From positions 372,001-436,000 of the forward strand of contig JAPZUD010000004.1 in the NCBI GenBank assembly GCA_027533425.1: DNA of 64,000 nt, written 5' to 3'. Within the stretch, counting starts at the first letter, position 1; each line of letters begins with the position of its first letter. This DNA comes from Beijerinckiaceae bacterium (GTDB lineage Bacteria > Pseudomonadota > Alphaproteobacteria > Rhizobiales > Beijerinckiaceae). The translations under genes and the position numbers were made by a program. The notes under the pieces are model-generated. The model was not told where the DNA came from. It saw nothing but the letters and a program-made list of their open reading frames with translations, and did no database searches. Below are positions 25,563 through 58,057 of this stretch, piece after piece.

Positions 25563-25621
25563 CCGGGACTTATGCTTCGAAAGCAGCAGGCATTCAACCA
25601 ACCATGGCGGGCTGTCGACCG

Positions 25622-26038
25622 TTATTTCTTGAGCAGGTCGCGGATCTCCATGAGCAGCTTTTCCTGGGCCGGCGGCTCGGCCGGCGCGGCAGGAGCCTCG
25701 GCGGCCTGCTGCTGCTTGAGCCGGTTCATGCCCTTGACCACCATGAAGAGTACCCACGCGATGATCACGAAATTGATCGAGACCGTCAGGAACTTGCCAT
25801 AGGCGAGAACAGCACCCTGCTTGGCCGCGTCGGCCACGTTGGTGGCTGTCACGGATTTGCTGAGCGCCAGAAAGTAATTGTCGAAGTTCAGGCCGCCGAC
25901 GATCGCGCCGATCAGCGGCATGAAAATGTCACCCACCATGGAATCGACAATCTTGCCGAAAGCGGCACCGATGATCACGCCGATGGCGAGATCGACAACA
26001 TTGCCCTTGAGGGCAAATTCCTTGAATTCCTTCAACAT
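25622..26038 (-). CDS. mscL: Large-conductance mechanosensitive channel MscL
   Basis: The 138-residue protein is a normal-length MscL. It has the N-terminal helix [15 protein letters not shown]1 with [18 protein letters not shown] (the pore constriction), a short periplasmic loop, TM2 with [20 protein letters not shown], and a C-terminal helix ([12 protein letters not shown]) after an Ala/Pro-rich linker. It forms a homopentameric safety valve that opens under hypo-osmotic shock. The ATG has AGGGGAATGCC upstream. The gene is divergent from the hybrid kinase gene across 218 nt. Confidence 0.97.
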
Positions 26039-43200: not shown

Positions 43201-43715
43201 GCTGGTTCGAGCAGGCCGCGCTTGCGGGCCATGGCCCGTCGCAATACCGCCTTGGCAGCCTCTACCGTGAAGGCAAGGTCCTGCCGAAAGAGCCGACACT
43301 CGCCTTCCAGTGGTTTGACCGGGCTGCGGCACAGGGCCATGTGCTTGCCATGCACAATGCCGCCGTGCTCCTTGCCGAGGGCGTGCACGGTGCGCCGGAT
43401 TATGCGGGTGCGGCGCTCTGGTTCAAGCGTGCCGCGGAGCACGGAATCAAGGACAGCCAGTTCAACGTTGCGATCCTGTTCGCCCGCGGCCTCGGCGTGA
43501 ATCAGGATCTCGCGGAATCCTATCGTTGGTTCGCCATCGCGGCCCTCCAGGGGGATCCCGATGCCGGCAAGAAGCGCGACGACATTGCTGCCCGGCTGAC
43601 CAAGGAACAGATCAGCCGGGAAAACGAGCGGGTCAAGGCCTTTAAGCCGATCCCGGCCAATGCCGCAGCGAACGATCCGGGCCAGTGGGACAAGCCGGCC
43701 CGCCAGGGCACCTGA
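40293..43715 (+). CDS. PodJ-like polar localisation protein with Sel1 repeats
   Basis: The 1140-residue protein starts with the typical LPWSVRGIDPDIREQAVEAAHRSGMSVGQWLNQ region. About 650 residues of Ala/Asp/Arg/Leu-rich coiled coil follow (to about residue 660), then a Pro/Ala-rich disordered linker and one membrane helix (ILLGLAALIFSIGALKVL, about 782-800). The periplasmic part has a low-complexity TPAPAPAPAPVPVPA stretch and three or four Sel1-like repeats (GSHAAWFEIGVRYADGKGV, LAARWFEQAALAGHGPSQYRLG and later copies, about 930-1100). This is the PodJ architecture: cytoplasmic scaffold, single membrane pass and periplasmic Sel1 domain. It probably marks a cell pole for pili, holdfast or polar growth factors. 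Confidence 0.93.
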   Translation: MANALPWSVRGIDPDIREQAVEAAHRSGMSVGQWLNQVLAGNLDEDDEEDDTYFARNRQASRRRPRRADQLGERLERLAQGTRAAGPVRGQDALPDTPRILDLIENAVQAIERLERRQSSGGHPGPSGRTTDDTLVEALRSFERRLEQMAPSRPSPMASVSAPVMARASHAADPDPAFTQTLAEIEARRRSLDGDVPSARPQTAAPVSGNAIEAMSQQLNALVGRIDEMRTERRPEDNALRARLDDLASRISEWRDTPSDSIAALRAEIGTLSDTLAALSPGRLATTLEDAFARTTERAIRAQAGDGDRVLESLGRLNEDVRAVMRELTDNRVSERLGHELGNLSKRLDIVANSVGGQRLDDLASDLQAVRSMVEQAARSNPADQMARKLDELSRKLDRQDDKGVLSAIDALNDQVRALAGGGIKGLESRLAEMTREMKKLAADKQPLPQMNAIADRLERIDRILDHRPDSTLGGLEAIAQSLETISGKLDRETTAPDPDVAAMLSDLSARFDQLQAQSPDTRSLDRLQDEVARVFQKLDQMGGAPAGLDTLERSVSDLFARIDQTRQDMRDMAERAALQAAEQAVRNAPRDEANDTLAAEGLLLIKRDLNEFKTAQTEAERRTRSTLEALHGTLEGIVSKLGQIETAKADIRPAPASAPHVEPPARPEPAAAREASAAVRREPAMDVAKRPDPAGRSAETPPRADLESDLPLEPGISPGSPAAAASLDPRNQFLAMARRAAQAAHASSEAILAEDAKPTKGVRAKQLAAGGSSFITRARKPILLGLAALIFSIGALKVLTGRMGQSEDIVAPMPPKPAVSTPAPAPAPAPVPVPARPADVESRETKDDPQNTGSTTRRAPPVEQQSLPTIQPNGMMTLPGNKRGQRLSDTSAVTQTDPVTVGSIAADGTSKPIETGRAVINELIGLSALKGQDKLRDAALQGSHAAWFEIGVRYADGKGVPRDGKLAARWFEQAALAGHGPSQYRLGSLYREGKVLPKEPTLAFQWFDRAAAQGHVLAMHNAAVLLAEGVHGAPDYAGAALWFKRAAEHGIKDSQFNVAILFARGLGVNQDLAESYRWFAIAALQGDPDAGKKRDDIAARLTKEQISRENERVKAFKPIPANAAANDPGQWDKPARQGT
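42757..42784 (+). repeat. In-frame hexanucleotide tandem repeat in the PodJ-like gene
   Basis: The unit CACCTG occurs four times perfectly (42757-42780) plus a partial fifth, coding for alternating Ala-Pro just after the membrane helix. Slippage would add or remove two residues without a frameshift. Confidence 0.8.
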
Positions 43716-43818
43716 TCGATCGGGCGGGACCCAACATCTCCGGTTGACGTTCGCGCCAGCCGGACCCAGAAGGGGCCGGGATGCCTGTACGCGACATGCG
43801 TCCCGGACGCGGTGCCGC

Positions 43819-44745
43819 ATGCAACTCTACCTGCCGATCGCCGAATTGCCGCTCAATCTCTTCCTGCTTCTGGGCATGGGAGGAGCGATCGGGTTCATTT
43901 CGGGTCTGTTTGGTGTCGGCGGCGGTTTTCTTCTCACCCCCCTGCTGATCTTTGTCGGCGTTCCCGCGCCGGTTGCCGTGGCCACCAGCGCCGCCCATAT
44001 CGCCGCTTCCTCGGTCACCGGTGCGCTGACCTACTGGCGCCGGAATGCGCTTGATCTGAAGCTCGGTACGGTGCTGACGATCGGTGGCCTGCTCGGCACC
44101 CTCGCGGGCGTATTCTTCTTCAATCAGATGCGGCGGCTCGGCCATCTCGATCTGGTGATCACCCTTGCCTATGTCACGCTGTTGATGTCAGTCGGCTGCC
44201 TGATGTTTGTCGAGAGCATCGGCGCCATGCTCCGGCAGAAAGCCGGCAAGGCAGCACCCATCCGCAAGGCGGGTGATCATGTCTGGTACGAGAAGCTGCC
44301 GCTGACCATGCGCTTCCCCAGATCGAAGATGTCGACGAGTGTGATCCCGTTGGCCGGTCTTGGCTTGGTGATCGGCTTCATCGGGACTGTTCTGGGGATT
44401 GGTGGCGGGTTTCTTGTCGTCCCGGCTCTGATCTATTTTTTCCGCGTGCCGACCTCCATCGTTGTCGGCACCAGCCTGTTCCAGATTCTCGTCACGATGA
44501 TCGTGGCCACATTCCTCCACGCCATTTTTTCGCAGGCGGTCGATGTGCTTCTCGCGCTGACGCTGGTCGTCGGCGGGGTGATCGGGGCCCAGTTCGGCAC
44601 GCGGACCGGGCAGGCCCTCAAGGGTGAACAGTTCCGCCTGCTCCTCGCCATGCTCATCCTCATCGTCGGAATCCGCTTCGCACTCGATCTCGTCGCTGCA
44701 CCGGCCGACCGCTTCTCGATCAACGCGACGGAACTCGAGCGATGA
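43819..44745 (+). CDS. TauE/SafE family sulfite/organosulfur exporter-like permease
   Basis: The 308-residue membrane protein has the two-half TauE/SafE layout, each half with a Gly-rich motif: GGAIGFISGLFGVGGGFLLTPLLIF near the N-terminus and GFIGTVLGIGGGFLVVPALIYF after a central cytoplasmic loop. About eight or nine helices are present. Family members export sulfite, sulfoacetate or sulfolactate, or act as unknown anion permeases. The ATG at 43819 fits the hydrophobic start; the open frame upstream is non-coding. The stop overlaps the TIGR02186 start by 4 nt, a pairing that recurs in Hyphomicrobiales. Confidence 0.9.
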   Translation: MQLYLPIAELPLNLFLLLGMGGAIGFISGLFGVGGGFLLTPLLIFVGVPAPVAVATSAAHIAASSVTGALTYWRRNALDLKLGTVLTIGGLLGTLAGVFFFNQMRRLGHLDLVITLAYVTLLMSVGCLMFVESIGAMLRQKAGKAAPIRKAGDHVWYEKLPLTMRFPRSKMSTSVIPLAGLGLVIGFIGTVLGIGGGFLVVPALIYFFRVPTSIVVGTSLFQILVTMIVATFLHAIFSQAVDVLLALTLVVGGVIGAQFGTRTGQALKGEQFRLLLAMLILIVGIRFALDLVAAPADRFSINATELER

Positions 44746-45503
44746 GTCGCTGGCTGGCCTCCGCGCTGCTCGCGCTTTCCCTTGCCGGTCAGGCCCGGGG
44801 CGAGGAACTGGTCCTTGCCCTATCGACCCGCGAGGTCGCCATCACCTCCACCTATACCGGTGCGGAAGTGACGGTTTTTGGCCATATCGAACGCGATGCC
44901 CGGACAATTGCCCGCACGGGCGACTATGACATTGTGGCGCAGGTACAGGGCCCGACCGGCGAGGTGGTACTGCATCGCAAGGGGCGTTTCGGCTTCATCT
45001 GGCTGACCGAAAGCCGTCGGCGCTACAGCAAGGTGCCGCTGTATTTCTCCATTCTCAGCGCCAAGCCTCTGGCCTCGATCATCGATGAGGATAGCCGCCA
45101 GAGACTTAAACTCGGGCTGGAGCATTTCCTGCCGGCACCGACGCCGGAGCTTGAGGAACGCGATGAATTCGGGTTTCGCAATGCCCTGTTGCGCCTGCGC
45201 CGCGAGGAAGGCGCGCTGACCGAGAACGAAAGGGGCGTGACGATGATCCGCCCCAACCTCTTCACCGCACGCATTGTGTTGCCGGCCAAGGCACCGACCG
45301 GGCTCTATCTCGTGAACATCTCAATTCTCTCCGAGGGCGTACCGCTGCGGACGGCACAGGCCGGGTTCGTGGTGCGCAAGGTCGGCTTCGACGCTTTCGT
45401 CGCGAACGCGGCCCGGAACGAGGCCGTCACCTACGGCCTCTTCACCGTTCTGATGGCTGTCCTGCTCGGCTGGATGGCGAATGTCGTGTTCCGCAAGGAC
45501 TAG
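44742..45503 (+). CDS. TIGR02186 family exported protein with C-terminal anchor
   Basis: The 253-residue protein has a signal peptide (ALLALSLAGQARG/EELV) and a beta-rich periplasmic region starting ELVLALSTREVAITSTYTGAEVTVFGHIE. A C-terminal membrane helix follows (GLFTVLMAVLLGWMANVVF). It matches the TIGR02186 family, which is found next to TauE-type permeases. Its role is unknown; it may be a periplasmic partner of the permease. Translational coupling by the ATGA overlap supports joint function. The next gene converges 74 nt away, and only a weak GGTTC/GAACC hairpin lies between them. Confidence 0.85.
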   Translation: MSRWLASALLALSLAGQARGEELVLALSTREVAITSTYTGAEVTVFGHIERDARTIARTGDYDIVAQVQGPTGEVVLHRKGRFGFIWLTESRRRYSKVPLYFSILSAKPLASIIDEDSRQRLKLGLEHFLPAPTPELEERDEFGFRNALLRLRREEGALTENERGVTMIRPNLFTARIVLPAKAPTGLYLVNISILSEGVPLRTAQAGFVVRKVGFDAFVANAARNEAVTYGLFTVLMAVLLGWMANVVFRKD

Positions 45504-45577: not shown

Positions 45578-47005
45578 TCAGGCCGGCTTCCGGCTTGCCG
45601 GGGTCAGGGCGTCGAACGCCTCGAACCGGGTGGAACGGCAATAGGTGTGGATTCCGGAGACAACCTGATGTCCCTCAGGGAAGAGACTCGACATCCGTTC
45701 CTGCCGAAAGCCATCCCTGTCCAGCTGGACAATCCGCATGAAATGGACACCGCGCCCGTATCCTCCGAGGCAATCCTGCACCGGGCGGATCAGGTCGTCG
45801 CCCTGTCGGAGCACCGGCCCCGCACTTCGCGCGAAACGGGCATCGATCATCAGCGGGTTCTGCCCATGCGGAAAGAAGGGGCCAAGCGGTGAATCCGCGT
45901 GATAGGCGCATAGGCAATCCCAGCTGGACCCGCCGCGGCTCTCATTGCCGAGCAGCCAGAACTTTCCGCCATGGGAAAACAGCGTGGCATCCTGCAGGGG
46001 AACATCGAGCAGGGGCGCGCATTCCTCCCAGCGATCGGGAAAAGCCGCAGCACGGTAGAGCGGGAGATGTCCTTCGGCCGCATTCTCGGGGATCATGTAG
46101 ATCTGCCCGTCATGCCGGAACAGGAACGGATAGGACAGGTGCCCCTTCCGGGTCAGGACAGGGCGCAGCGGGCCGAGCGGCCGGGCCTCGCCATCGAGTT
46201 CGGTCACCGCGAGAAATCCCGTCATGGTGCTGAACGGGAAAACTTCGACAAACAGGAAAGCCCGCCCGTTCTCCTCCCAGAGAATCGGGTCTGCCAGATA
46301 GCTGGACCCGTCATCGGCAATCCACGCGCAGCCGTCGGATGTGCTGGGGAGGCTGGTATCCTCATGCTTCCGGCGGCGGACACCGACATGCCAGTGGTCA
46401 GGGCGGAAATGTCGCCGTGCCGCTAGCCCCAGAGCCTTGGCCACGAAGTGACGACCCGCCACGCGGGCCGGCGATTGCGGGCGATGGACCTCGGCAACCG
46501 GGATCTCGACGGGCGCATGGCCGCTGACGGCCTTGTGGATCAGCCATCCCAGGCGCTGGATGTAGGAAGTCAGCGTGAAAGCGACGCTGAATGGCCGCTC
46601 CGTGGCCGGCAAACCTGTCCAGCGGAGGCCGTTCGGATCGCGGACGATCAGACGTGGCGTCAGCCCTTGTGCGAGGCGCAACGGGAGCAGCGCGAGCGCT
46701 TCGTTTTCGATCGTCACCTGGAATCCGTCACCCGATGTGGGCGTCGGGGACAGCGCGATCCGCACACGACCGGAAACGTCGTCCGGGGGGGGCGCGCCCT
46801 GGCAGGACGGGGAGAGCCACGCGCCGGATTCCACGCCGTAGAGGTGCGGCTCAAGCCGAAGGAGCCAGTCCGGTCTTGGCTGCGGTGCCGCTGCCGCCAC
46901 AACGATTTCCGTCGCGACGTCATGCCCGAGTTCGTTCAAGTGTGAAACGAGACTGTCCAGCCACGCGCCGGAATCGGAAAGTTTGATGCCGAGAAGTAGG
47001 TTCAC
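45578..47005 (-). CDS. GINT1-like (glucosamine inositolphosphorylceramide transferase N-terminal-type) protein
   Basis: The product of about 475 residues has a formyltransferase-like N-terminal part (NLLLGIKLSDSGAWLDSLVSHLNELGHDV). The C-terminal 250 residues form a five-bladed-propeller-like domain with repeated blades such as YLADPILWEENGRAFLFVEVFP, LSYPFLFRHDGQIYMIPEN and DATLFSHGGKFWLLGNES. This matches the bacterial relatives of the N-terminal domain of plant GINT1, often encoded in glycan clusters. The activity is unproven. The GTG at 47005 follows a G-rich stretch; a TTG at 47020 is the alternative. It is divergent from a glycosyltransferase gene with 100 nt between them. Confidence 0.78.
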   Translation of the reverse strand: MNLLLGIKLSDSGAWLDSLVSHLNELGHDVATEIVVAAAAPQPRPDWLLRLEPHLYGVESGAWLSPSCQGAPPPDDVSGRVRIALSPTPTSGDGFQVTIENEALALLPLRLAQGLTPRLIVRDPNGLRWTGLPATERPFSVAFTLTSYIQRLGWLIHKAVSGHAPVEIPVAEVHRPQSPARVAGRHFVAKALGLAARRHFRPDHWHVGVRRRKHEDTSLPSTSDGCAWIADDGSSYLADPILWEENGRAFLFVEVFPFSTMTGFLAVTELDGEARPLGPLRPVLTRKGHLSYPFLFRHDGQIYMIPENAAEGHLPLYRAAAFPDRWEECAPLLDVPLQDATLFSHGGKFWLLGNESRGGSSWDCLCAYHADSPLGPFFPHGQNPLMIDARFARSAGPVLRQGDDLIRPVQDCLGGYGRGVHFMRIVQLDRDGFRQERMSSLFPEGHQVVSGIHTYCRSTRFEAFDALTPASRKPA

Positions 47006-47105
47006 ACCCGAACCCCGCAAGGGAATTTTATGAAAATTGTGCGATCAGGCAGGCAGGCGCCGGTATGACGGACCGTGCGTCGGGATTCCGTTCGGGGCCT
47101 GTTTA

Positions 47106-48191
47106 ATGCCATCCCGTAAATTTCTCTTTTACATGCCGGCCCTGCTGGGAGGTGGCGCGGAGCGCGTCTTCGCATTGCTGGCTTCCGAGACTCGCCGCCG
47201 GGGCCACGACGTGATCTTCGCCGTTGACTACGAAGCGACCGAGAATCTCGATTATCTCGACCCCGGAATCCGCAAGGTCACGCTTCCGTCAGGGCACTTG
47301 CGTTCCGTCATGGGGCTTGCCGCGCTGTTGCGCAGGGAAAGCCCGGATGTCTCCTTCTCCGGACTTGGCGTTGCCAATCTCAAGCACATGCTGGCGGCGC
47401 TCATGACGGCCCGGCATCGCCGGGCCGTCATTTCCTTCCATGGTTTCTTCGAATCCGAGAACCGCCTGCTTTCGCGGCTTGGCAATCACGGCGCGCCGCT
47501 CTTCACGCGCCTCTGCGGCCGCGCCATCGCCGTCTCCGACGGGCTGAGGGATGAGCTTGTCCGGCGCTACCATGCCTCGCCCTCGCGCACCGTCCGCATC
47601 TATAACCCTGTCTATTCACCGGTTGGCTGGCCCGCAGTCGAGGCTGCCGATCTGGCGTCACGCCCGCCGCGCATCCTCTTTGTTGGCCGCATGCATCCGG
47701 ACAAGGATCTCCCGACCCTGCTCCGCGCCTTCGCGAAGGTCAGCACCCCCGGGGCCATGCTGGAGCTGGTCGGTGACGGCCCGGTGCGGCCGGAACTGGA
47801 GCGCCTTTCCGCCGCGCTTGGCATTGCGGATCGCCTGTCCTTCGCTGGCTATCTGAAGGATCCGGCGGATGCCTATCGCCGTTCGCGGGTGCTCGCACTG
47901 ACGTCGCGGCTCGAAAGTTTCGGCAATGTTGTCGCCGAGGCGCTTGCCCATGGATTGCCGGTGGTCAGCACTGCGGCAGCGGGGCCGGCGGAAATTCTCG
48001 GCCATGGCGAATTCGGGGCGCTGGTGCCGATCGGGGATCATGAAGCGATGGCACGCGCGCTTGACGCTGCTTTGAGCGGGTCGGGAGAACCCGCTGCAAG
48101 GCAGGCCCGCGCCTCTCTCTTCTCGATCGAAGCGGCGACCGATGCCTACCTGGCAACGGCAGAGGACATCCTGCGGGACGTGTCAGCCTGA
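47106..48191 (+). CDS. Glycosyltransferase family 4-type protein
   Basis: The 361-residue GT-B enzyme has the N-terminal LLGGGAERVFALLASETRRRGHDV nucleotide-fold start. VGRMHPDKDLPTLLRAFA lies at the domain junction, followed by VGDGP, and the C-terminal donor-binding ESFGNVVAEALAHGLPVVST has the EX7E-like motif. It transfers a sugar from an NDP or UDP donor to a lipid-linked or oligosaccharide acceptor on the cytoplasmic side; the sugar is unknown. The ATG at 47106 is chosen because the conserved fold starts just after it. Its 3' end overlaps the convergent wecB-type gene by 9 nt. Confidence 0.92.
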   Translation: MPSRKFLFYMPALLGGGAERVFALLASETRRRGHDVIFAVDYEATENLDYLDPGIRKVTLPSGHLRSVMGLAALLRRESPDVSFSGLGVANLKHMLAALMTARHRRAVISFHGFFESENRLLSRLGNHGAPLFTRLCGRAIAVSDGLRDELVRRYHASPSRTVRIYNPVYSPVGWPAVEAADLASRPPRILFVGRMHPDKDLPTLLRAFAKVSTPGAMLELVGDGPVRPELERLSAALGIADRLSFAGYLKDPADAYRRSRVLALTSRLESFGNVVAEALAHGLPVVSTAAAGPAEILGHGEFGALVPIGDHEAMARALDAALSGSGEPAARQARASLFSIEAATDAYLATAEDILRDVSA

Positions 48192-48971
48192 TTTGCCCGA
48201 TCGTCCCCGCATGGATTGGGTGATCATCCGCCAGAGGAAGACCGGATTACCAAGGATGTAGCGACGCCAGAGCCGACCTGGCTCCTGCAGCAGGCGGAAG
48301 GCCCATTCCAGCCGCAACGTTCGGACCAGCGGCGGGGCCCGGACAACTTCGCCGGCAAGGAAATCGAACAGCGCGCCGACGCCGAAAGCCAGCCCGCAAT
48401 GGCGGGAGCCCAGATTCTGGTGGATCCACAATTCCTGCAGCGGATTGCCAAGCGCGACCAGCACGATGTCGGCCCGGTTCGCCTCCAGCTTCCCCCGGAC
48501 TTCCGCCGTTCGACGATCGCCGCCATAGCCATCCGAAAGCACCACGTATCGATGCTGCGGTGCGAGCCCGGAGAGGCTGGCCGCTGCGCGTTCGGCGATC
48601 CCGGGCTTGCCGCCAAACAGGGCCACCGAAAGCGGTGCCGGGGCAGCCTTCAGCAGAAGGGGCAGCAGGTCGGTCCCGTTCAGATTGGCCGGAAAGGAGC
48701 GCCCGCCCACCAGCCGTGCGCCAATATCGACACCAATTCCATCCGGCAGGACCACAAATTCGCCAAGCGCATTGGCGAAGGCGGGATTGTCATAGGCCAC
48801 GTTGACCATATGCGCATTCGCAAAGGCGATCTTGGCATGGTTGCCGCGGGTGATGATCCGGTGCAGGCCGGTGATCGCTTCGTCGCGGGTCAGGGCGGCG
48901 ACGGAGACCGGGCCGATCCGGATGGTCTTCTGGACAAGCGGTTCGATCGACGCGTTGACGCGCGCTGTCAT
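48183..48971 (-). CDS. WecB/TagA/CpsF family glycosyltransferase (GT26)
   Basis: The 262-residue enzyme has the family blocks IAFANAHMVNVAYDNPAFANAL, VLPDGIGVDIGARLVGG, NGTDLLPLLL, ALFGGKPGIAERAAASL and ALGNPLQELWIHQN with GVGALFDFLAGEV. Members transfer N-acetylmannosaminuronate, N-acetylmannosamine or similar sugars to undecaprenyl-linked acceptors. They are monotopic and work at the inner membrane. The ATG overlaps the epimerase stop (ATGA), so both are translated from one leftward mRNA. It supports a polyprenol-linked glycan made by this region. Confidence 0.93.
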   Translation of the reverse strand: MTARVNASIEPLVQKTIRIGPVSVAALTRDEAITGLHRIITRGNHAKIAFANAHMVNVAYDNPAFANALGEFVVLPDGIGVDIGARLVGGRSFPANLNGTDLLPLLLKAAPAPLSVALFGGKPGIAERAAASLSGLAPQHRYVVLSDGYGGDRRTAEVRGKLEANRADIVLVALGNPLQELWIHQNLGSRHCGLAFGVGALFDFLAGEVVRAPPLVRTLRLEWAFRLLQEPGRLWRRYILGNPVFLWRMITQSMRGRSGKSG

Positions 48972-49915
48972 CGCACGTTCCTCAGCCAGTCGATGGATTG
49001 CGCCATGATGGCCTCATAGCCGGTCCGCTCGAAGCCGAGATCGGCATCCGTCGCGACGGAGGAAAACCGGACATCCGAGCTGAACAATCGGGCGAGACTG
49101 GGCGTGATCGCTTCGGGCAGCCAGGGTTTGGGGCCGAACAGCTTTTCCATGAGCTTCAGCGGCAGCACGGCAAACCGGCTTTCAAGCCTGAGCTGATAGC
49201 CCGGCACGCGATGGACCGGCGTCGCGCCGAGGCCTTTCGCGAGATCCAGAAGATAGCGGTTCCAGCGCGGCGGATCGGGCATGGCGAGATTGTAGCTGAG
49301 GCCACTCTGCTCACAGAAAAGCGCGCGGGCAATCGCCGCCGCTACGTCCTCGACCGCGATCAGATTGGCAAAACCGTCGCCCTGTGCGCCGAGATCGCCC
49401 AGGCGATGCTGACGGAGCAAGCGGCCGATGCGCAAGGTCCATGGGTGGGATTCTGGCCCGCAGACGAGGCCCGGCCGGAGAATGATGGTCTCAAGGCCAC
49501 GGGCCTGGGCGGCGCGCAAAAGCGCCTCGCACTGGATCTTGGCCGCGCCATAGGCATTCACCCCTTCGCCCTGCGGGCTGTCCTCGTCGATCATCCCTTC
49601 GCGCGAGCCATAGACGGCGATGCTGGAGAGATGGACAAAGCGGCGGACGCGATGATGGAATGCGGCGTTGATCAGCGCCTCGGTGCTGCGGATCATCGTG
49701 TCGGGGGAGCCCAGCACGCAATTGACCACCGCCTGCATACCCTCGGCGGCGGCCTGCGCCGATGCGGAATCTGTTGCATCGACCAGCCGCATCGCAGCCG
49801 CTCCCGGGCGCGCCTTCCTGATACCCCGGAACGGTTCCGCGAGGCCGGAAGCCTTGAGGGTCTCAACGACGTGACGGCCGACAAAGCCGTTTGCGCCAAC
49901 CACCAGGACCTTCAT
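48968..49915 (-). CDS. NAD-dependent epimerase/dehydratase (SDR, sugar-nucleotide or lipid-linked)
   Basis: The 315-residue extended SDR protein has the Rossmann start MKVLVVGANGFVGRHVVETL, the strand VVNCVLG, the catalytic-region Ser in HLSSIAVYGS and the YGAAK tetrad (Tyr and Lys at about residue 140). LRPGLVCGPESHPW is also present. It probably modifies a sugar nucleotide or a sugar on a polyprenyl carrier. The start is the ATG at 49915, with AAGGGAC upstream; the extension to 50008 has no fold signal. It is followed by the wecB-type gene with a 4-nt overlap. Confidence 0.9.
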   Translation of the reverse strand: MKVLVVGANGFVGRHVVETLKASGLAEPFRGIRKARPGAAAMRLVDATDSASAQAAAEGMQAVVNCVLGSPDTMIRSTEALINAAFHHRVRRFVHLSSIAVYGSREGMIDEDSPQGEGVNAYGAAKIQCEALLRAAQARGLETIILRPGLVCGPESHPWTLRIGRLLRQHRLGDLGAQGDGFANLIAVEDVAAAIARALFCEQSGLSYNLAMPDPPRWNRYLLDLAKGLGATPVHRVPGYQLRLESRFAVLPLKLMEKLFGPKPWLPEAITPSLARLFSSDVRFSSVATDADLGFERTGYEAIMAQSIDWLRNVR

Positions 49916-50254
49916 GCCGGTGTCCCTTTCCGGCTTATCCTGCGGGCGGCTCCGGGCAGCACCAGCCTCCTGACGGAGCATGGCGCGCCGGGCGATGCGA
50001 TCGGGCATCGGGGTCGAACAAAGGCGAAGGAAACCTTCGGGAAAGGCAGTCGGAAGCAGGGTTTGAACATGGCTGCTGATTACCGGCTATCTCCTAAAAT
50101 TTTCATGATTCGATACCGGAATCCTTCAGGCATGGCAGGAAATCTTCGCCGCTCCCGGCTGAATTTCAGGGCGGAAAGCAAAGCCGGACCAATCCGGTAG
50201 GGAATTTCGGCTAGGCTGGGTTCTCTCGTTCGGAACCATCTCGGAGCCATTCAC
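49916..50254. other. 339-nt intergenic region; weak promoter-like pair for the GH10 gene
   Basis: No convincing gene is seen. On the rightward strand TTGAAC (50063-50068) and CTATCT (50087-50092) are 18 nt apart, a weak sigma-70-like pair about 165 nt upstream of the GH10 gene. A small hairpin CCGGA-CCAA-TCCGG lies at 50184-50197. The leftward epimerase gene must also have its promoter here. Confidence 0.35.
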
Positions 50255-51358
50255 GTGGATTTCAGCCGGTCGATCAATCGTCGCCAGATAATGCAGCTCG
50301 GAGCCGCAGCTGCGGTGGCAGCCCCCATCGCACCAGCCCTGGGCCAGCGCCTGCCGCTTTGGGCCGAGGCCCGGCGGGCAGGTATTCTTTTCGGCTCGGC
50401 GGCCGCCTGGGAGGTCATCAAGGATCCCGAATATGGCGCGCTGCAGGCGCAGCATTCGCGCCTTCTGGCAACGGAACTTGCGCTGAAATTCGACTATCTG
50501 CGTCCGCGCGAGGAGACGTTCGACTTCGGGCAACCCGACGCGCTCCTCGAATTCGCACGTGCCCATGGCATGTATTTCCGGGGTGCGGCCATGTTCTGGA
50601 ATGATTGGCCCGCCCCTTGGCTCAAGGGCAAGTCAGCACGGGAGATCGAACGGATCTTCGACGAGCATATTGATGTTGTCGGCGGTCGCTACGCGGGCGC
50701 CATGCAATCGTGGGATGCGGTCAACGAACCCTTCTGGCCCGATGCCGGCCGACCGGGCGGGTTCCGGCCTGGGCCCTGGTATGATGCGATGGGCGAAGCG
50801 TATATCGAGCGGGCCTTCCGGCGCCTCGCGCGTGTCGATCCGTTGGCGAAGCTTGTACTCAACGAGGCCTTCACCGAACAGGATGACCGGCTGGGCCGTC
50901 AGGTCCGTGCGGCCATGCTGCCCCTGATCGATCGGCTGCTCGACAAGGGCGTCAAGCTGGATGCCATTGGCCTGCAGGCGCATATCCGCCCGGGCCTCGC
51001 CTTCGACATGGAGCCCTTCCTCCGGTTCCTCGAGGAAATTGCCCGGCGGAAGCTCGATATCTATCTCACCGAATTCGATATCGAGGATCTGACCTTCCCG
51101 AAAGAGATCACGAAGCGCGACGAGCAGGTAGCAGAATGGACGATGCGCTTTCTCGAACCCGTCCTGAAAAACCGGGCCGTGAAGGTGCTCATTCCCTGGC
51201 ACCTCTCCGACCGCTACACATGGTATCGCGAGCCGGCTGTGGCGAGGGAACGGGGTTTCCGCTTCCCGGCGCGGGCACTGCCTTTCGATGATCGGCTCAA
51301 CGAGAAGCCGATGGCCATGGCCATCCGGCGGGCCTTGCAGGCAGCCCCGGCCCGCTGA
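50255..51358 (+). CDS. Tat-exported GH10 endo-1,4-beta-xylanase-like glycoside hydrolase
   Basis: The 367-residue protein has a twin-arginine signal (NRRQIMQLGAAAAVAAPIAPA, residues 8-29) and a GH10 barrel. The acid/base Glu158 lies in WDAVNEPF and the nucleophile Glu273 in IYLTEFDIED. LRPREETFDF, GAAMFWNDWPAPWL and GLQAHI are also typical, and IPWHLSDRYTWY closes the active site. GH10 enzymes cleave beta-1,4-xylan or related beta-glycans. The GTG start has GGAG 9 nt upstream. No xylan uptake or xylose genes surround it; the neighbours are glycosyltransferases, so processing of a self-made glycan is more likely than plant xylan digestion (inference). Confidence 0.9.
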   Translation: MDFSRSINRRQIMQLGAAAAVAAPIAPALGQRLPLWAEARRAGILFGSAAAWEVIKDPEYGALQAQHSRLLATELALKFDYLRPREETFDFGQPDALLEFARAHGMYFRGAAMFWNDWPAPWLKGKSAREIERIFDEHIDVVGGRYAGAMQSWDAVNEPFWPDAGRPGGFRPGPWYDAMGEAYIERAFRRLARVDPLAKLVLNEAFTEQDDRLGRQVRAAMLPLIDRLLDKGVKLDAIGLQAHIRPGLAFDMEPFLRFLEEIARRKLDIYLTEFDIEDLTFPKEITKRDEQVAEWTMRFLEPVLKNRAVKVLIPWHLSDRYTWYREPAVARERGFRFPARALPFDDRLNEKPMAMAIRRALQAAPAR

Positions 51359-51521
51359 TGCGCCTGGCGCTTGCCTTTCGGGAAAGCCGGCAAGTATTCC
51401 GCAACGATAATGCGGACAATTGCACCGGTTTCGCCCCGGATTGCACGAAAGATTTTACTTTCGGCCGCATGGCTGGGGCGAAGGCTGCGCATAAGGCGGC
51501 ATCAACCAGGACCGGAAAACC

Positions 51522-52643
51522 GTGAAGACCATTTACATCGTTGCACCCGGAGGCGGCGTCGGCGGCGGCATGGGCCGCGTCAAGGATTACATCCTTGAAT
51601 CGGACGCAGCCCGGAATGGGCCTGTCCGGTTCGAGGCTTTGGTCACCCGCGACGAGCGGGGTGTCGGCTTCTCGCTCCTGCTTCTCCTGCGCGCCATCCT
51701 GAAGATCTGGTGGGCCCGGCTGAGCGGCAGTCTGGCCTTTGTCCATGTCAATTTCGGCGATAAGGGCAGCGCCTTCCGGAAGGGCGTGATCATCCTCGCT
51801 TCCGCCTTGGTCGGCGCCCCGACTCTCCTTCATCTCCATGCGGCGGAACTGATGGAGTTCCACGCAGAAGGTTCGGCGATCCGCCGCTGGTTGCTGCGGC
51901 TCCCTTTCCGGCAGGCCAGCGCGATCATCGTGCTCGGCCGGCTCTGGAAGGAATGGCTCGTTCGGGATCTCGGAATCGATGCGGGAAAGATCGATATCCT
52001 TTGCAACGGGGTTCCGGTCGTGCCGATGCCCCGGACCTTCACGGCAGACCCCGGCCGGACCCGCACGATCCTCTTTCTGGGCCTCCTGACCGAGCGGAAG
52101 GGCATTTCCGATTTTCTCGCCGCGCTGGCTCGCCTTCCCGGTGAGGCCCCGCCCTGGCGCGCGATCATCGCCGGCCATGGTGACGTGGCCCGCTACTCGG
52201 CGCTGGCAGAGGAACTTGGCCTTGCAGGCCGGGCAGAATTCACCGGCTGGGTCGGGCAGGCGGATGTGCGCCGTTTGCTGTGCAGCGTCGACATGATGGT
52301 CCTGCCTTCCTATCACGAGGGGCTTCCCCTGGTGATTCTCGAAGCGTTGGGCTGCGGCGCGCCGGTCATCACGACGCCGGTCGGGGCGATCCCGGAGTTT
52401 CTGGAGCAGGGAAGGGAAGTCCTGCTTGTGCCGCCCGGCGACCGGCAGGCGCTGGCTGATCGGATGCTCGACGTAATGATGGATCCGGTGCTGCAGCAAT
52501 CGCTGTCCGACAAGGGCCTGGAACGGTTTCGCGCCCGGTTCACGCTGGAGGCTTTCCTGGCTGATATGCTGTCAATCTACGCGCGCCGGTTCGGTGTCCG
52601 GGCGGATCCGTCGGGCGAGATCGCTGCGGAGCGTGCGCGATGA
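51522..52643 (+). CDS. Glycosyltransferase family 4 protein
   Basis: The 373-residue GT-B enzyme starts IYIVAPGGGVGGGMGRVKDYIL. It has HLHAAELMEF in the acceptor domain, ILFLGLLTERKGISDFLAAL at the interdomain junction and PSYHEGLPLVILEALGCGAPVITTPVGAIPEFL, the GT4 donor-site EX7E motif. It uses an NDP-sugar on the cytoplasmic face. The start is a GTG at 51522 with GGAAAACC just before it. The stop overlaps the GMC oxidoreductase start (ATGA), an unusual partnership that suggests the oxidase acts on the same glycan or its precursor. Confidence 0.92.
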   Translation: MKTIYIVAPGGGVGGGMGRVKDYILESDAARNGPVRFEALVTRDERGVGFSLLLLLRAILKIWWARLSGSLAFVHVNFGDKGSAFRKGVIILASALVGAPTLLHLHAAELMEFHAEGSAIRRWLLRLPFRQASAIIVLGRLWKEWLVRDLGIDAGKIDILCNGVPVVPMPRTFTADPGRTRTILFLGLLTERKGISDFLAALARLPGEAPPWRAIIAGHGDVARYSALAEELGLAGRAEFTGWVGQADVRRLLCSVDMMVLPSYHEGLPLVILEALGCGAPVITTPVGAIPEFLEQGREVLLVPPGDRQALADRMLDVMMDPVLQQSLSDKGLERFRARFTLEAFLADMLSIYARRFGVRADPSGEIAAERAR

Positions 52644-54325
52644 TCGTCGACGCCGAGGCTCCCGGATCAAGCGGGGTCCTGACCACGCAGGTCTGTATCA
52701 TCGGTGCCGGTCCCGCCGGGATCTCGCTGGCCTTGCGTCTCGCCCAATCCGGCCTCGAGGTTGTCCTTGTCGCAGGTGGCGCACTGGAGGCGGAGGCCCG
52801 CCATCAGGCTCTCTATGCCGGCGAGGTAGCCGATCCGGCCCTGCACAGCCCGACCACGGAGTATCGCCATCGGCAGTTCGGCGGATCTTCCTCGACGTGG
52901 GGCGGCCGGGCAATGCCTTTTGATCCGATCGATTTCGAGACACGGGACTGGATCGAAGGCGCAACATGGCCGATCGGGTTTGACGACATCGCGCCGCATT
53001 ACGCGGCGGCTGCAGAACTGGCGGAGATCGGCGATCCTGAATTCTCCGCTGCCCGTGCCATTGACGGCGGCATGCGGCCGATGATCGACGGTCTGGCCGG
53101 CCCGCATTTCAGCCAGGATTCGATCGAGCGGTTTTCCTGTCCCACCCGCTTCGGACCACGTTACCGGCGGAGGATCGAGCGATGCCCGAACATCACCGCA
53201 CTCCTCAATGGCCACGCCACCGAGATCCTGACCTTGAATGGCAAGGCCAGCGGCGTGACCGTACGGACATTGACGGGGCAGGAAATCCGGGTTTCCGCCG
53301 AGGCGACAGTCATTGCGGCCGGTGGTCTTGAAACACCGCGTCTCCTGCTTTCGTCGCGGGGTGACGAGGCTTCCGGCATCGGCAACACTCATGATCAGGT
53401 CGGGCGCAACTACCTCTGCCACATTGCCGGAACGATGGGGTCGGTCCGGTTCGACCCGGCACGGACCCGGATCTGGCACGGCTACGAAAGGACCTGGGAC
53501 GGCGTCTATTGCCGCCGCCGGCTATCCCTCCGGCCTGATGTCCAGCGGGACCATCGCATCGGCAACATCGTGATCCGCCTGCATCATCCCCGCCTGCCTG
53601 ATCCGGCGCACGGGCGCGGCATCCTTTCCGCCATCTATCTGGCCAAACCCTTTATCAGCTACGAGTATTCCAAGCGTCTCCATGGCAGCGAAAGTCCCGG
53701 TTTCGCTGGCTATCTGCGCCATGCCGGCAATGTGCTGCGGGAACCCTTCGCGACGGCCGGTTTCCTGATGAACTGGGTCCGGCGCCGGACATTGGCCGAC
53801 CGGAAATTCCCGTCGCTTGTCGTCGAACCGCGCAACGGCATCTACAGCCTCGACATCCACGCTGAACAGGTACCCAATCCGGAAAGCCGGATCACCCTGT
53901 CAAGCGAGCGGGATGCACTCGGCATGCCGCGGCTGCGCGTTGACTGGCGCCATCGACCGCTTGATTTCCGGACCGTTTCCGTTGCGCTCGACCTGCTGCG
54001 GCGTGACCTTGCGGATCAACGGCTGGGCGAACTGACCTATCGGGAAGAAGAGATCCCGGACGCCATGCTGCGCGAGGGGGCCTATGGAGGGCACCATATC
54101 GGCACGGCGCGCATGTCCCGCTCGCCCCGGGAGGGCGTGGTTGACGGCGATGGCCGCGTCCATGGCATGGACAATCTCTACATCGCCGGTTCGGCTGTCT
54201 TCCCGACATCAAGCCAGGCCAATCCGACGCTGACCATCATCGCTTTTGCCCTGCGCCTTGCAGATCACCTCCGGAGCCGCTTGCAGCCGGCGCCGGCCTC
54301 GATCCGGACAGAGGGAGCCGCATGA
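52640..54325 (+). CDS. GMC family FAD oxidoreductase
   Basis: The 561-residue flavoenzyme has the FAD-binding CIIGAGPAGISLALRLA (residues 19-35), the RQFGGSSSTWGGRAMPFD block of the GMC family and ATVIAAGGLETPRLLL. The active-site GGHHIGTARM carries a His, and the C-terminal YIAGSAVFPTSSQANPTLTIIAFALRLADHL has the Asn-Pro-Thr motif. GMC enzymes oxidise primary or secondary alcohols, including sugars. There is no signal peptide, so it acts in the cytoplasm, perhaps on a sugar nucleotide or lipid-linked sugar. It overlaps the GT4 gene by 4 nt. Confidence 0.93.
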   Translation: MIVDAEAPGSSGVLTTQVCIIGAGPAGISLALRLAQSGLEVVLVAGGALEAEARHQALYAGEVADPALHSPTTEYRHRQFGGSSSTWGGRAMPFDPIDFETRDWIEGATWPIGFDDIAPHYAAAAELAEIGDPEFSAARAIDGGMRPMIDGLAGPHFSQDSIERFSCPTRFGPRYRRRIERCPNITALLNGHATEILTLNGKASGVTVRTLTGQEIRVSAEATVIAAGGLETPRLLLSSRGDEASGIGNTHDQVGRNYLCHIAGTMGSVRFDPARTRIWHGYERTWDGVYCRRRLSLRPDVQRDHRIGNIVIRLHHPRLPDPAHGRGILSAIYLAKPFISYEYSKRLHGSESPGFAGYLRHAGNVLREPFATAGFLMNWVRRRTLADRKFPSLVVEPRNGIYSLDIHAEQVPNPESRITLSSERDALGMPRLRVDWRHRPLDFRTVSVALDLLRRDLADQRLGELTYREEEIPDAMLREGAYGGHHIGTARMSRSPREGVVDGDGRVHGMDNLYIAGSAVFPTSSQANPTLTIIAFALRLADHLRSRLQPAPASIRTEGAA

Positions 54326-54438
54326 TTGTTCCTTTCCCCGAGGTCAACGGCATCGGGCGGGGCCGGAAACAGGCCTCGATCACGATTCCAGTGCCGCTTT
54401 TCGATTTTGTTGACCGTGTCGGGAAATTGCCTCGATGA
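54322..54438 (+). CDS. Possible 38-residue mini-protein overlapping the GMC stop
   Basis: An ATG at 54322 overlaps the GMC stop as ATGA and is followed by 38 codons (MIVPFPEVNGIG..., ending VDRVGKLPR) before TGA. The position fits translational coupling, but the peptide has no recognisable motif and could be chance. The remaining 97 nt before the acetyltransferase gene are AT-richer leader sequence. Confidence 0.25.
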   Translation: MIVPFPEVNGIGRGRKQASITIPVPLFDFVDRVGKLPR

Positions 54439-54535
54439 ACCACGAACCTCCTTCGGGATTTCTTCAAAATGAATGTTGCATAAGCAGTTTTGCACGCCTC
54501 GATGGTCAGGTTTCGATGTGCGGCAAGGGATTGAA

Positions 54536-55747
54536 ATGACGTTTTCGGTGTCGGCGCCCCAGAATGTAGCGGCCGAGGCAGCCGGTGAGGTTGCCGTGGC
54601 AGACGGCCTCGATATCGAGGCGATCGGCTTCCGCCATTTCCGTGAGGTGGAGTCCCTGTTCGAGGGGCTGGAAGGCTCGACCTTCCAGAGCCGGCTATGG
54701 CTCTCGAGCTGGTTTGATGTTTTTGGGTCACGGCCCGGGATCGAGAACTTTCTGGTGCTTGTCCGTGATGCGGGCGGAACCGTCCTCATGGCGCTGCCCC
54801 TGATCCGCCGGAATGTCCGGAATATCCGTGTGCTGGAATGCCCCGATCTCGGCGTCTCCGATTACGCCGCGCCGATGCTGCGGCGTTCGGCTGTGAACCG
54901 TCTGCCCCGGGGCAATGCCCTGTGGGAGTTGATCCGGCCTGCACTTCCCGAGGCAGATCTTTTGCATGTCTGCCGGATCGCACCGGTGGTCGGCGGCATG
55001 GCCAATCCGATCCACGGGCACCACGCGAGCCGCAGGAACCGGCTATCCGGCTGGGTTCTCAGCTTGCCAGCCTGCTGGGACACCTATTTCGCCTCGCTCT
55101 CTCCGAAGAAACGGGAGAAGCTCAAGAAGATGGGGCGCAAGTTCGACCGGGTCCCGGGGGCCGAACGCCGGGTGGTCGAAAATGTCACCGAAGGCCTTGG
55201 TGTCCTTGCGGATCTGGAACGTCTGCAGAGCGTGCGGATCGAGAAGAAGGGCCTCGACTACTGCCTCGACGAACCGGCCATCCGCAGCTTCTATCGTCGC
55301 CTGATCGAGCAGGGGTTGCCGGCCGGGAAGGTGCAGATGACCATCCTGACCGTTGATGGCCACACGGTGGCGGCCAATTTTGCGGTCAAGGCTGGCACCG
55401 AGCTGATATATCTGCGGGTGGCTAATGAATTTGGCCCCTGGTCGAATTATGCGCTGGGTCTTGTCGTCACGGAACGGGCAATTGCCGAGGCACAGAAGCG
55501 AGGCATCCGGACCTTCGACTTCACGATGGGCAATTACGAATACAAGCGCCGTTTCGGAGCCGTCGAGATGCCGCTCGACGATCTCGTCCTGCCTCTGTCA
55601 TGGCGGGGCTGGCCGGCGGCCTGTGCCTGGCATCTGCGGCACTGGGCAAGTCGGTCCGCATGGCTGCGCCGGGTATTCGGCCGGGACGATCTGGACAGGA
55701 CCGCCTGCCCGCGCCACGCCGATGACCCCGCCGGCGATGCCGCGTGA
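54536..55747 (+). CDS. CelD/BioF2-type GNAT acetyltransferase
   Basis: The 403-residue protein matches the acetyltransferase_6 (PF13480) family: FQSRLWLSSWFDVFGSRPG and LVLVRDAGGTVLMALPLIRR in the N-terminal GNAT half. SLSPKKREKLKKMGRKFD, VAANFAVKAGTELIYLRVAN and IRTFDFTMGNYEYKRRFG lie in the C-terminal half. Relatives are encoded in cellulose and exopolysaccharide clusters and are thought to acylate sugars. The ATG at 54536 is preceded by AAGGGATTGAA; an in-frame ATG/TTG at 54473 lacks a ribosome site. It is the last gene of the glycan region and converges on cynS. Confidence 0.88.
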   Translation: MTFSVSAPQNVAAEAAGEVAVADGLDIEAIGFRHFREVESLFEGLEGSTFQSRLWLSSWFDVFGSRPGIENFLVLVRDAGGTVLMALPLIRRNVRNIRVLECPDLGVSDYAAPMLRRSAVNRLPRGNALWELIRPALPEADLLHVCRIAPVVGGMANPIHGHHASRRNRLSGWVLSLPACWDTYFASLSPKKREKLKKMGRKFDRVPGAERRVVENVTEGLGVLADLERLQSVRIEKKGLDYCLDEPAIRSFYRRLIEQGLPAGKVQMTILTVDGHTVAANFAVKAGTELIYLRVANEFGPWSNYALGLVVTERAIAEAQKRGIRTFDFTMGNYEYKRRFGAVEMPLDDLVLPLSWRGWPAACAWHLRHWASRSAWLRRVFGRDDLDRTACPRHADDPAGDAA

Positions 55748-55790: not shown

Positions 55791-56279
55791 TCAGTCCTCG
55801 CGGTAGCCGTATTCCGGAATGCCCTGCTCGTTGCCGTAATACTTGTAGGGCAGGAACTTGCCGCTCATCGTGATATTGACGCGGTCCCCACGCGGGTTAG
55901 GCTCGCGGACGATCTCGATGTTGAAATCGATCGCCGACATGATGCCATCGCCGAATTCCTCCTCGATCAGCGCCTTCCATGCCGGGCCATTGACCATCAC
56001 CATCTCGTAGAAGCGATAGATCAGCGGATCGGTCGGCGGCATGGGCGTGCCGGTGCCGCGATAGGGGATTTCGTTGAGCATCCGCTCCTCGACTTCGGAA
56101 AGGCCGAAGAGGGTCGCGGCGCGCTTGGCCAGCGGCTTCACGAGCTTCATCTGGCCGAGCAGCGCACCCACCACGAGCACCGGCGACATACCGCCGATCT
56201 CGTCGGTGATGTGTTTCCAGGTCCAGCCCTTCTCACGCTTGATGTCGAGGATTTTTTCCGTGAGGTCGGCACGCTTCAT
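55791..56279 (-). CDS. cynS: Cyanase (cyanate hydratase)
   Basis: CynS converts cyanate and bicarbonate to CO2 and carbamate, which decays to ammonia and CO2, so it detoxifies cyanate and yields nitrogen. The 162-residue protein has the N-terminal helical domain (ILDIKREKGWTWKHIT) and the catalytic C-terminal domain. Arg89 and Glu92 are in IYRFYEMV and Ser115 is in GIMSAIDF, with the same spacing as Arg96, Glu99 and Ser122 of E. coli. It ends a leftward operon with an ABC transporter, 32 nt after the ATPase gene. Confidence 0.97.
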   Translation of the reverse strand: MKRADLTEKILDIKREKGWTWKHITDEIGGMSPVLVVGALLGQMKLVKPLAKRAATLFGLSEVEERMLNEIPYRGTGTPMPPTDPLIYRFYEMVMVNGPAWKALIEEEFGDGIMSAIDFNIEIVREPNPRGDRVNITMSGKFLPYKYYGNEQGIPEYGYRED

Positions 56280-56311
56280 CGGGAGACTCCGGTTGTTGCT
56301 CGGGGGAAGGG

Positions 56312-57208
56312 TCAGGCGACTTTCCGCCCCGCCTCATGGCTGGGCGGCAGTGGTTGCGGCTGGTTCTGCGGCAGGATGACCGGCGGCTTGCGGCGGTCGT
56401 AGTCGGCCGGGATCTCGGATTTGAACGTCTTTGAGCGGCTGACCAGGAAATCGATCAGGTGGTTCCGGATCGCGTAGAAGGCGGGATGGCGATGGATCTG
56501 GTTGCGGTCCCGCTCCTTGGGCAGCGGGTTCTCGACGATCTCCGCGACCATCGCTTCCGGCCCGTTGGTCATCAGCACGATCTTGTCGGCGAGATAGATC
56601 GCCTCGTCGACATCATGCGTGATCATGAAAACGGTCTGCCCGGTTTCGAGGCAGATCCGGCGCACCTCGTCCTGCAGGGTGCCGCGCGTCAGCGCATCGA
56701 GGGCGGAGAAGGGTTCGTCCATCAGCAGGATCTTCGGCTCGATCGACAGCGCACGGGCAATGCCGACGCGCTGCTTCATGCCACCGGACAGCTGGGCCGG
56801 CTTTTTCCCCTCCGCGCCCTTGAGCCCGACCTTGTCGATGAAGCGCCGGGCCTGCTCCTCCACCTGGCTCCGGCTCCATTTCGGCCAGCGCGAGGAAATG
56901 GCATAGGCGACATTGCCGAGCACGGTCCGCCACGGCAGGAGCGCATGGCTCTGGAAGATCACGGCGCGGTCGAGCGAGGGGCCTTCGATCGCCTTGCCAT
57001 CGACAATCGCCGCGCCGTCATCCGGCAGGTCGAGGCCCGACAGGATGTTGAGCACGGTCGTCTTGCCGCAGCCGGAATGGCCGATCATGCAGACGAATTC
57101 CCCGCGGGCGATGGCGAACCAGATATCCTCGAACACGGTGGTCTGGCTGCCATCCGGCGCCTGGAACCGCCGCGTGATTCCCTCGATGGAAATGAACTTC
57201 GCGCTCAT
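56312..57208 (-). CDS. ABC transporter ATPase (nitrate/cyanate type)
   Basis: The 298-residue ATPase has Walker A GHSGCGKT (about residue 42), the Q-loop, the signature [15 protein letters not shown], Walker B ILLMDEP and the H-loop MITHDVDEA. This is the NrtD/SsuB/TauB subfamily. Its operon position between the permease and cynS identifies it as the energising subunit of a cyanate importer, equivalent to CynD. The C-terminal 60 residues extend beyond the core domain. The permease gene ends 3 nt before it. Confidence 0.94.
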
Positions 57209-57211
57209 GGT

Positions 57212-58054
57212 TCACTCCGGGAAGGACACGGCGCGGGCCACCCGCGCGAGGGCCTGGTCGAGGATCATGCCGACGAGGCCAATCACCAGAATCGAGGTGA
57301 TGACATTGGTGATCGAAAGGTTGTTCCATTCGTTCCAGACGAAATACCCGATGCCGGTGCCGCCCACGAGCATTTCGGCCGCAACGATGACCAGCCAGGC
57401 AATCCCGATCGAGATGCGCATGCCGGTGACGATCGTCGGTGCGGCTGCCGGGAGGATCACCGTGAACGCCCGGCGGAAAGGCCCGACCTCAAGGGTGCGG
57501 GCCACGTTCAGCCATTCCTTCCGGACACTGGACACGCCGAATGCCGTGTTGATCAGCATCGGCCAGAGCGAGCAGATAAAGATGACGAAGATCGAGGAAA
57601 TCGAGGAATCCTTGATCGTGTAGAGCGCCAGCGGCATCCAGGCCAGCGGCGAGACCGGCTTCATGATCTGGATGAAGGGATCGAGCGCGCGGGCCATCAG
57701 CGGCGACATGCCGATCAGGAAGCCAAGCGGCAGGGCCACCAGCATGGCCAGGCCATAGCCCAGCAGGACGCGGCCGATCGAATAGGCAAGCTGGATCCCG
57801 ATCCCCTTGTCGTTCGGGCCTCGGTCGTAGAACGGCTCCTTCAGATGGCTCCAGATCTTGACCAGCACGTCGAGCGGGCCGGGCATGGCGGATTTGCCCT
57901 GCACGGCGGTCTGCCCCATGAGCTTTGCATATTCCGGGTCCATCTGCTGCGTCGGGCCGCTGCCGGACACGGCGAGATGCCAGGCCAGCCCGAAGATCAG
58001 CAGGATGCCCAGCGAGACAATGCCCGCCCGCAGCCGGAGGCTGGTCTGCCGCAT
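57212..58054 (-). CDS. ABC transporter permease (nitrate/cyanate type)
   Basis: The 280-residue inner membrane protein has about six helices and the permease loop GVSSVRKEWLNVARTLEVGPFRRAFTVILPAAAPTIVTGM, the EAA-type coupling motif of the NrtB/TauC subfamily. ERWxxV-like features are not used to set the substrate. Gene order (binding protein, permease, ATPase, cynS, with 3-nt and 3-nt gaps) supports a cyanate importer, equivalent to CynB. Confidence 0.94.
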   Translation of the reverse strand: MRQTSLRLRAGIVSLGILLIFGLAWHLAVSGSGPTQQMDPEYAKLMGQTAVQGKSAMPGPLDVLVKIWSHLKEPFYDRGPNDKGIGIQLAYSIGRVLLGYGLAMLVALPLGFLIGMSPLMARALDPFIQIMKPVSPLAWMPLALYTIKDSSISSIFVIFICSLWPMLINTAFGVSSVRKEWLNVARTLEVGPFRRAFTVILPAAAPTIVTGMRISIGIAWLVIVAAEMLVGGTGIGYFVWNEWNNLSITNVITSILVIGLVGMILDQALARVARAVSFPE

Positions 58055-58057
58055 GGC

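Follow-up and report, generated by a model that had tools for sequence, protein, structure and literature searches.

A conserved, probable exopolysaccharide gene block of a Beijerinckiaceae bacterium is one half of a split locus and encodes a candidate GMC/reductase couple

The 64,000-nucleotide stretch of Beijerinckiaceae DNA analyzed here (the window) carries at 45578-55747 a block of eight genes, encoding a GINT1-like protein, two GT4 and one GT26 glycosyltransferases (GTs), a short-chain dehydrogenase/reductase (SDR), a GH10 hydrolase, a GMC-family flavoprotein and a CelD/BioF2-type GNAT acyltransferase. Our results reveal that the block is a conserved unit with the GINT1-like and CelD/BioF2 genes at its edges, and that it is one half of a split exopolysaccharide gene set, the co-polymerase (Wzc), polymerase (Wzy) and flippase (Wzx) genes of which lie elsewhere on the contig. 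Within a single exopolysaccharide pathway of the Wzx/Wzy-dependent kind, the block probably supplies the half that assembles and modifies the sugars, with the GMC flavoprotein and a reductase coupled in some form.

Open reading frame (ORF) calls, a Pfam scan and the coordinates bear out the eight genes and the three overlapping gene ends described in the initial annotation, i.e. 48183-48191 (9 bases, convergent ends), 48968-48971 (4 bases) and 52640-52643 (4 bases); the GC content of the block is about that of the surrounding DNA. GH10 matches were present in 26 of 61 genomes searched, and neighbourhoods of up to 20 kb round one GH10 site were fetched from each of the 25 non-window genomes; several of these regions end at contig ends, one genome (G023) is represented by one of its two GH10 sites, and L053-L055 were excluded as duplicates of L028-L030. 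ORFs of the relatives were called by a codon-position GC script, with some starts wrong and some genes missed, and gene detection was rerun over every ORF of at least 150 residues. Within the genus the block genes recur beside variable flanking genes; the recurrence of the set in relatives with differing flanks implies that the grouping of the eight genes is more than chance. The order in other species is roughly, and variably, GNAT-Wzc-Wzy-(Wzx)-(SDR-GMC-GT4b)-GH10-GT26-GT4a-GINT1-like, which indicates that 45578-55747 carries the unit's own two ends; in relatives, too, the GNAT gene marks the block edge or lies close to it.

No Wzy, Wzx or Wzc gene is present inside the block of the window's species and three relatives, whereas in other species Wzc-Wzy-Wzx sit inside it. 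Searches with profiles built from relatives located the three genes side by side at C7:257224-262024 of the window's genome (G000), on one contig with, and ~160 kb from, the GH10 gene (C7:422255). This genome has one Wzy match, one Wzx match and four Wzc matches, the best of the latter being in the triad. The Wzy scores above the cut-off for the VpsF family (NF038256, 271.7 bits, cut-off 150), with no Pfam match and no match in a PDB profile search; the Wzx scores above the cut-off for PF13440 (29.4 bits, cut-off 23), and the Wzc/Wzz co-polymerase (C7:259970-262024) is above cut-off for both PF02706 and PF13807. Of six genes scanned next to the triad, five belong to other families and one has no match. 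The same split layout is seen in G013 and G015, on one contig, and in G002, on two contigs. The initial description of a cluster without polymerase or flippase thus holds for the locus, but not for the system, and a locus judged incomplete by its neighbourhood can be a split polysaccharide locus.

The lack of an assembly gene in the block of these four is also what would be seen were the block to make a short glycolipid or glycan cap, unpolymerized and with no need of Wzy. We regard this as improbable, because all four retain the same Wzc-Wzy-Wzx elsewhere and because, in Wzy and Wzx searches covering 24 genomes, 17 of them genus members, the genus genomes without the block (G006, G008, G012 and G011, the last only 78% complete) are exactly those without Wzy and Wzx. 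GH10, Wzy, Wzx and full-length GINT1-like genes mark the identical set of 13 of the 17 genus genomes. Two other species have just the Wzx gene apart from the block (G004:C18:467-1966 and G005:C2:193083-194528), so the assembly genes may have relocated more than once.

Table 1. Genes of the block at 45578-55747, in window coordinates, with family matches
Gene product	Position	Strand	Match	Remarks
GINT1_N-domain protein	45578..47020	-	Pfam PF24793 E 3.4e-36	480 residues; one block edge
GT4 glycosyltransferase GT4a	47037..48191	+	Pfam PF13692 E 9.9e-34	kept within conserved block
WecG/TagA/CpsF GT26 glycosyltransferase	48183..48971	-	Pfam PF03808 E 6.3e-48; TIGR00696 112.5 bits, cut-off 69	
Extended SDR/epimerase	48968..50008	-	Pfam PF01370 E 1.8e-24	YxxxK with Tyr153; proposed reductase partner of GMC
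GH10 hydrolase	50255..51358	+	Pfam PF00331 E 5.4e-56	twin-arginine N terminus; catalytic Glu158 and Glu273
GT4 glycosyltransferase GT4b	51522..52643	+	Pfam PF13692 E 6e-34	accompanies GMC within genus
GMC-family flavoprotein	52640..54325	+	Pfam PF05199 E 3.6e-29	
CelD/BioF2-type GNAT acyltransferase (Acetyltransf_6)	54473..55747	+	Pfam PF13480 E 6e-19	other block edge

The GH10 protein has a twin-arginine stretch, read by eye in its N terminus, as a putative export signal. Its top matches among solved proteins bear the name xylanase, and both catalytic glutamates are present in all 57 aligned GH10 rows; these properties would suit a role in the use of plant xylan, with the GMC protein serving alcohol use and the glycan genes being neighbours by chance. 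Across the order, GH10 genes (E <=1e-25) occur in 99 of 397 genomes, from 35 genera. Within ~20 kb of GH10, taking one genome per genus, at least two classes of assembly gene were detected in 23 of the 35 genera, one in 2 and none in 10, the last count also being in keeping with xylan use; genus g1 is represented here by L031 (G003), the window's own block having no assembly gene and its triad being 160 kb off. For comparison, one of 25 listed GMC loci, 24 of which belong to the GMC clade other than the window's (see below), has at least two such classes. A search for GH43 gave no match in any of the 17 genomes of the genus but did give matches in 5 of 14 control genomes; other xylan enzymes were not searched for. 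Given that the genus conserves the block and that assembly genes accompany GH10 in most genera, a xylan/alcohol role is highly improbable, and the polysaccharide role first proposed, including for GH10, is well supported. GH10 genes of this order often belong to polysaccharide loci and are then no sign of xylan use. The same 35 regions contain GT26 in 21 genera, GMC in 3, a GINT1-like gene in 5 and a GNAT gene of this kind in 7; GH10 plus GT26 is therefore the common core, and the full combination described in the initial annotation is rare.

The GMC protein has no leader peptide visible on reading of its sequence, and is therefore placed in the cytosol; all 10 aligned rows keep its His485, and among solved proteins its top matches are glucose and fructose dehydrogenases. 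The closest named GMC loci (92-94% identity) are from Rhabdaerophilum sp. SD176 and two Beijerinckiaceae metagenome-assembled genomes. Close GMC matches (E below 1e-230, the next being 9e-19) occur in 9 of the 17 genus genomes, and the SDR has its close matches (E below 1e-75, the next being 3e-10) in the identical 9; at E <=0.001 the tallies are 13/17 for GMC and 17/17 for SDR. GMC matches are lacking in the other four genomes with the block (G009, G010, G014 and G016), which have another GT4 at that place. Outside the genus, the neighbour of GMC is often an aldo/keto reductase (AKR). GMC genes (E <=1e-80) are present in 48 of the 397 genomes of the order, and the 46 GMC sites not yet covered were fetched as 45 regions.

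A midpoint-rooted tree of 57 GMC rows splits, with full support, into clades of 31 and 26 rows. Of the 31 rows in the window's clade, 26 have a reductase no more than 3 kb away (17 AKR, 9 SDR; the window's row was scored from its coordinates), as compared with 2 of 26 rows, both of one locus, in the other clade (Fisher test, kinship ignored: 4.4e-9 by rows and 1.2e-4 by genera, the latter from a hand tally of 11/14 vs 1/15). The tree omits G002 (L029), L195 and L198, in which the first caller missed the GMC gene, as well as rows of <480 bits, e.g. L059-L061; AKR is adjacent to GMC in both L195 and L198. Partner labels for L035, L028 and L030 were assigned by hand, and an SDR within 3 kb was later detected in each. 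The nine SDR-paired rows, which form one clade, include the window and two relatives with the SDR on the opposite strand. Overlaps of 4 bases join GMC to SDR in L031, L034, L115 and L185, and GMC to AKR in L189, L191, L197, L199, L200 and L203. The AKR tetrad (Asp100/Tyr105/Lys130/His203) is complete in all 21 detected AKRs, 19 of which are beside a GMC gene. A GMC subclade of 16 rows (L206-L215, L217-L221 and L229), 10 of them in family f35, is found at a distance from any detected assembly gene, in some cases next to genes for OafA-like acyltransferases.

The exchange of one reductase for an unrelated one points to a couple that first oxidizes and then reduces, and the gene pairing suggests that GMC and reductase epimerize a sugar before flipping. 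The oxidation step of the initially proposed "oxidised glycan" is thus kept in our proposal, but an oxidized end product is disfavoured, since a reductase gene usually accompanies GMC. It could alternatively be that this is an ordinary Wzx/Wzy locus without a redox couple, in which the sugar made by GMC stays oxidized (keto, aldehyde or acid) and the SDR acts independently as a nucleotide-sugar epimerase. The solved GMC relatives are indeed sugar oxidases and dehydrogenases, and for the SDR there are matches to epimerase models of Pfam, to those of NCBIfam below cut-off and, weakly, to solved epimerases; however, 17 of the 31 rows in the same GMC clade have an unrelated AKR in its stead and, to our knowledge, aldo/keto reductases are not stand-alone epimerases. 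We consider the uncoupled alternative rather unlikely.

Several observations nonetheless weigh against a coupled pathway. The SDR gene of the window, like that of its close relatives, is on the opposite strand and ~2.6-2.7 kb from GMC, and its product may work alone as an ordinary epimerase. Five rows of the window's clade have no nearby reductase (L186, L222, L223, L224 and L202, the last on a 4.9-kb contig), and two of these, L222 and L223, nevertheless belong to polysaccharide loci; the same is true of L226 and L048 in the other clade, which likewise have no reductase nearby. The GMC rows are kin to each other, so the pairing counts are not independent and are inflated. The two phosphoglycosyltransferase (PGT) and three Poly_export (Wza) matches in G000 are all off the block's contig. 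With respect to GH10, deletion of the GH10 gene prmN in the promonan system left colony form unaffected (PMC11340318), and trimming of the polymer by GH10 is for this reason no more than plausible.

Gene identities, the conserved unit, the split locus, gene co-presence and GMC-reductase pairing were observed directly, and from them we infer every reaction, order and substrate of the following pathway. A PGT encoded elsewhere would place the first sugar on undecaprenyl phosphate, and GT26 and both GT4 enzymes would extend the lipid-linked sugar. The cytosolic GMC flavoprotein would oxidize a sugar hydroxyl, with the SDR reducing the resulting ketone, most likely to the epimer, and the GNAT protein would acylate the sugar unit. 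Wzx would then flip the product, the VpsF-type Wzy polymerize it and Wzc set its length, all from genes ~160 kb off, and exported GH10 would trim it. More tentatively, GMC with an exchangeable NAD(P)H reductase (AKR or SDR) may constitute a new two-enzyme redox epimerase for exopolysaccharide precursors in several Hyphomicrobiales families; if so, it would set an unusual sugar in the polymer. Unipolar polysaccharide was considered as the product and set aside, as no usable gene list was found in the papers searched.

The GINT1-like protein matches only PF24793, the GINT1 N-terminal domain; no glycosyltransferase family, including GT64, was matched at E <=0.001 in Pfam, and nothing in NCBIfam, leaving a transferase label unsupported for it. 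Plant GINT1 glucosaminyltransferase shares the PF24793 domain family, but has a C-terminal GT64 catalytic domain, whereas the bacterial protein has no matched GT64 or other transferase domain. The best PDB match of its profile is a weak one to GH43 (E 0.0038, 47 profile positions), and its C-terminal part is perhaps GH43-like; a structure predicted from four close sequences was unusable (mean pLDDT 32). The gene is full-length in 13 of 17 genus genomes. Short matches at G008:C14:383685-383807 (41 profile positions) and G011:C127:3653-3733 (27 positions), both in genomes without the block, are perhaps remnants of block loss.

With respect to the flanks, putative cyanase and nitrate/cyanate-type ABC transporter genes, labelled by reading of the sequence, adjoin the block at 55791-59437 (minus strand), and TauE/SafE transporter and Alph_Pro_TM genes adjoin it at 43660-45503, a position shared by only the closest relatives. 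Membrane-protein and aminotransferase-like genes (clusters c11 and c12), which adjoin the GINT1-like gene in several relatives, are at 23338-25757, ~20 kb from that gene in the window by a match judged by eye, implying rearrangement of this flank.

The initial annotation knew of no described pathway with this combination of genes. At the family level, the promonan (prm) cluster of Sphingomonas sp. LM7 does join a WecG-type GT, GH10, an acyltransferase, Wzx, Wzy and Wzz in one pathway (PMC11340318), the Wzc/Wzz being matched here; what stands is the rarity of the full combination and the absence of GMC there, Table 4 of that paper containing no GMC, SDR, AKR or GINT1-like genes and 'gmc' being absent from its main text (PMC11340318). 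Promonan differs further in that its GTs are GT2 and WecG, its acyltransferase is OafA-like, a GH16 is present and its locus is single and contiguous, whereas WecG, GH10 and GNAT are inside the block studied here and Wzx and Wzy are outside it, though inside in relatives. A literature search on GMC, reductase and polysaccharide brought up the promonan paper and one tuberculosis review, with no mention of GMC among the further papers listed, as far as the retrieved texts go. In the Caulobacter holdfast (hfs) system, HfsJ is of the WecG family (PMC11340318). The likeness to holdfast thus comprises a WecG-family GT in both and a Wzx whose nearest curated model is HfsF; the differences are that this Wzx falls far under the HfsF cut-off (89.3 vs 700 bits) and that Wzy here is VpsF-type. 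The holdfast pathway also has a CelD/BioF2-type protein, HfsK, and we know of no GMC gene in it.

The closest mechanistic parallel for the proposed couple is DprE1/DprE2, in which a flavin oxidase and an NAD-dependent reductase epimerize a sugar via its keto form. DprE1 is of another flavoprotein family than GMC, with a FAD_binding_4 domain; the best Pfam match of the window's flavoprotein is GMC_oxred_C, and FAD_binding_4 is not among its 10 listed families. The proposed couple would thus resemble DprE1/DprE2 in oxidizing and then reducing a sugar; it differs in having GMC as flavoprotein and an SDR or AKR as reductase, a candidate enzyme couple that is testable and may make an unusual sugar.

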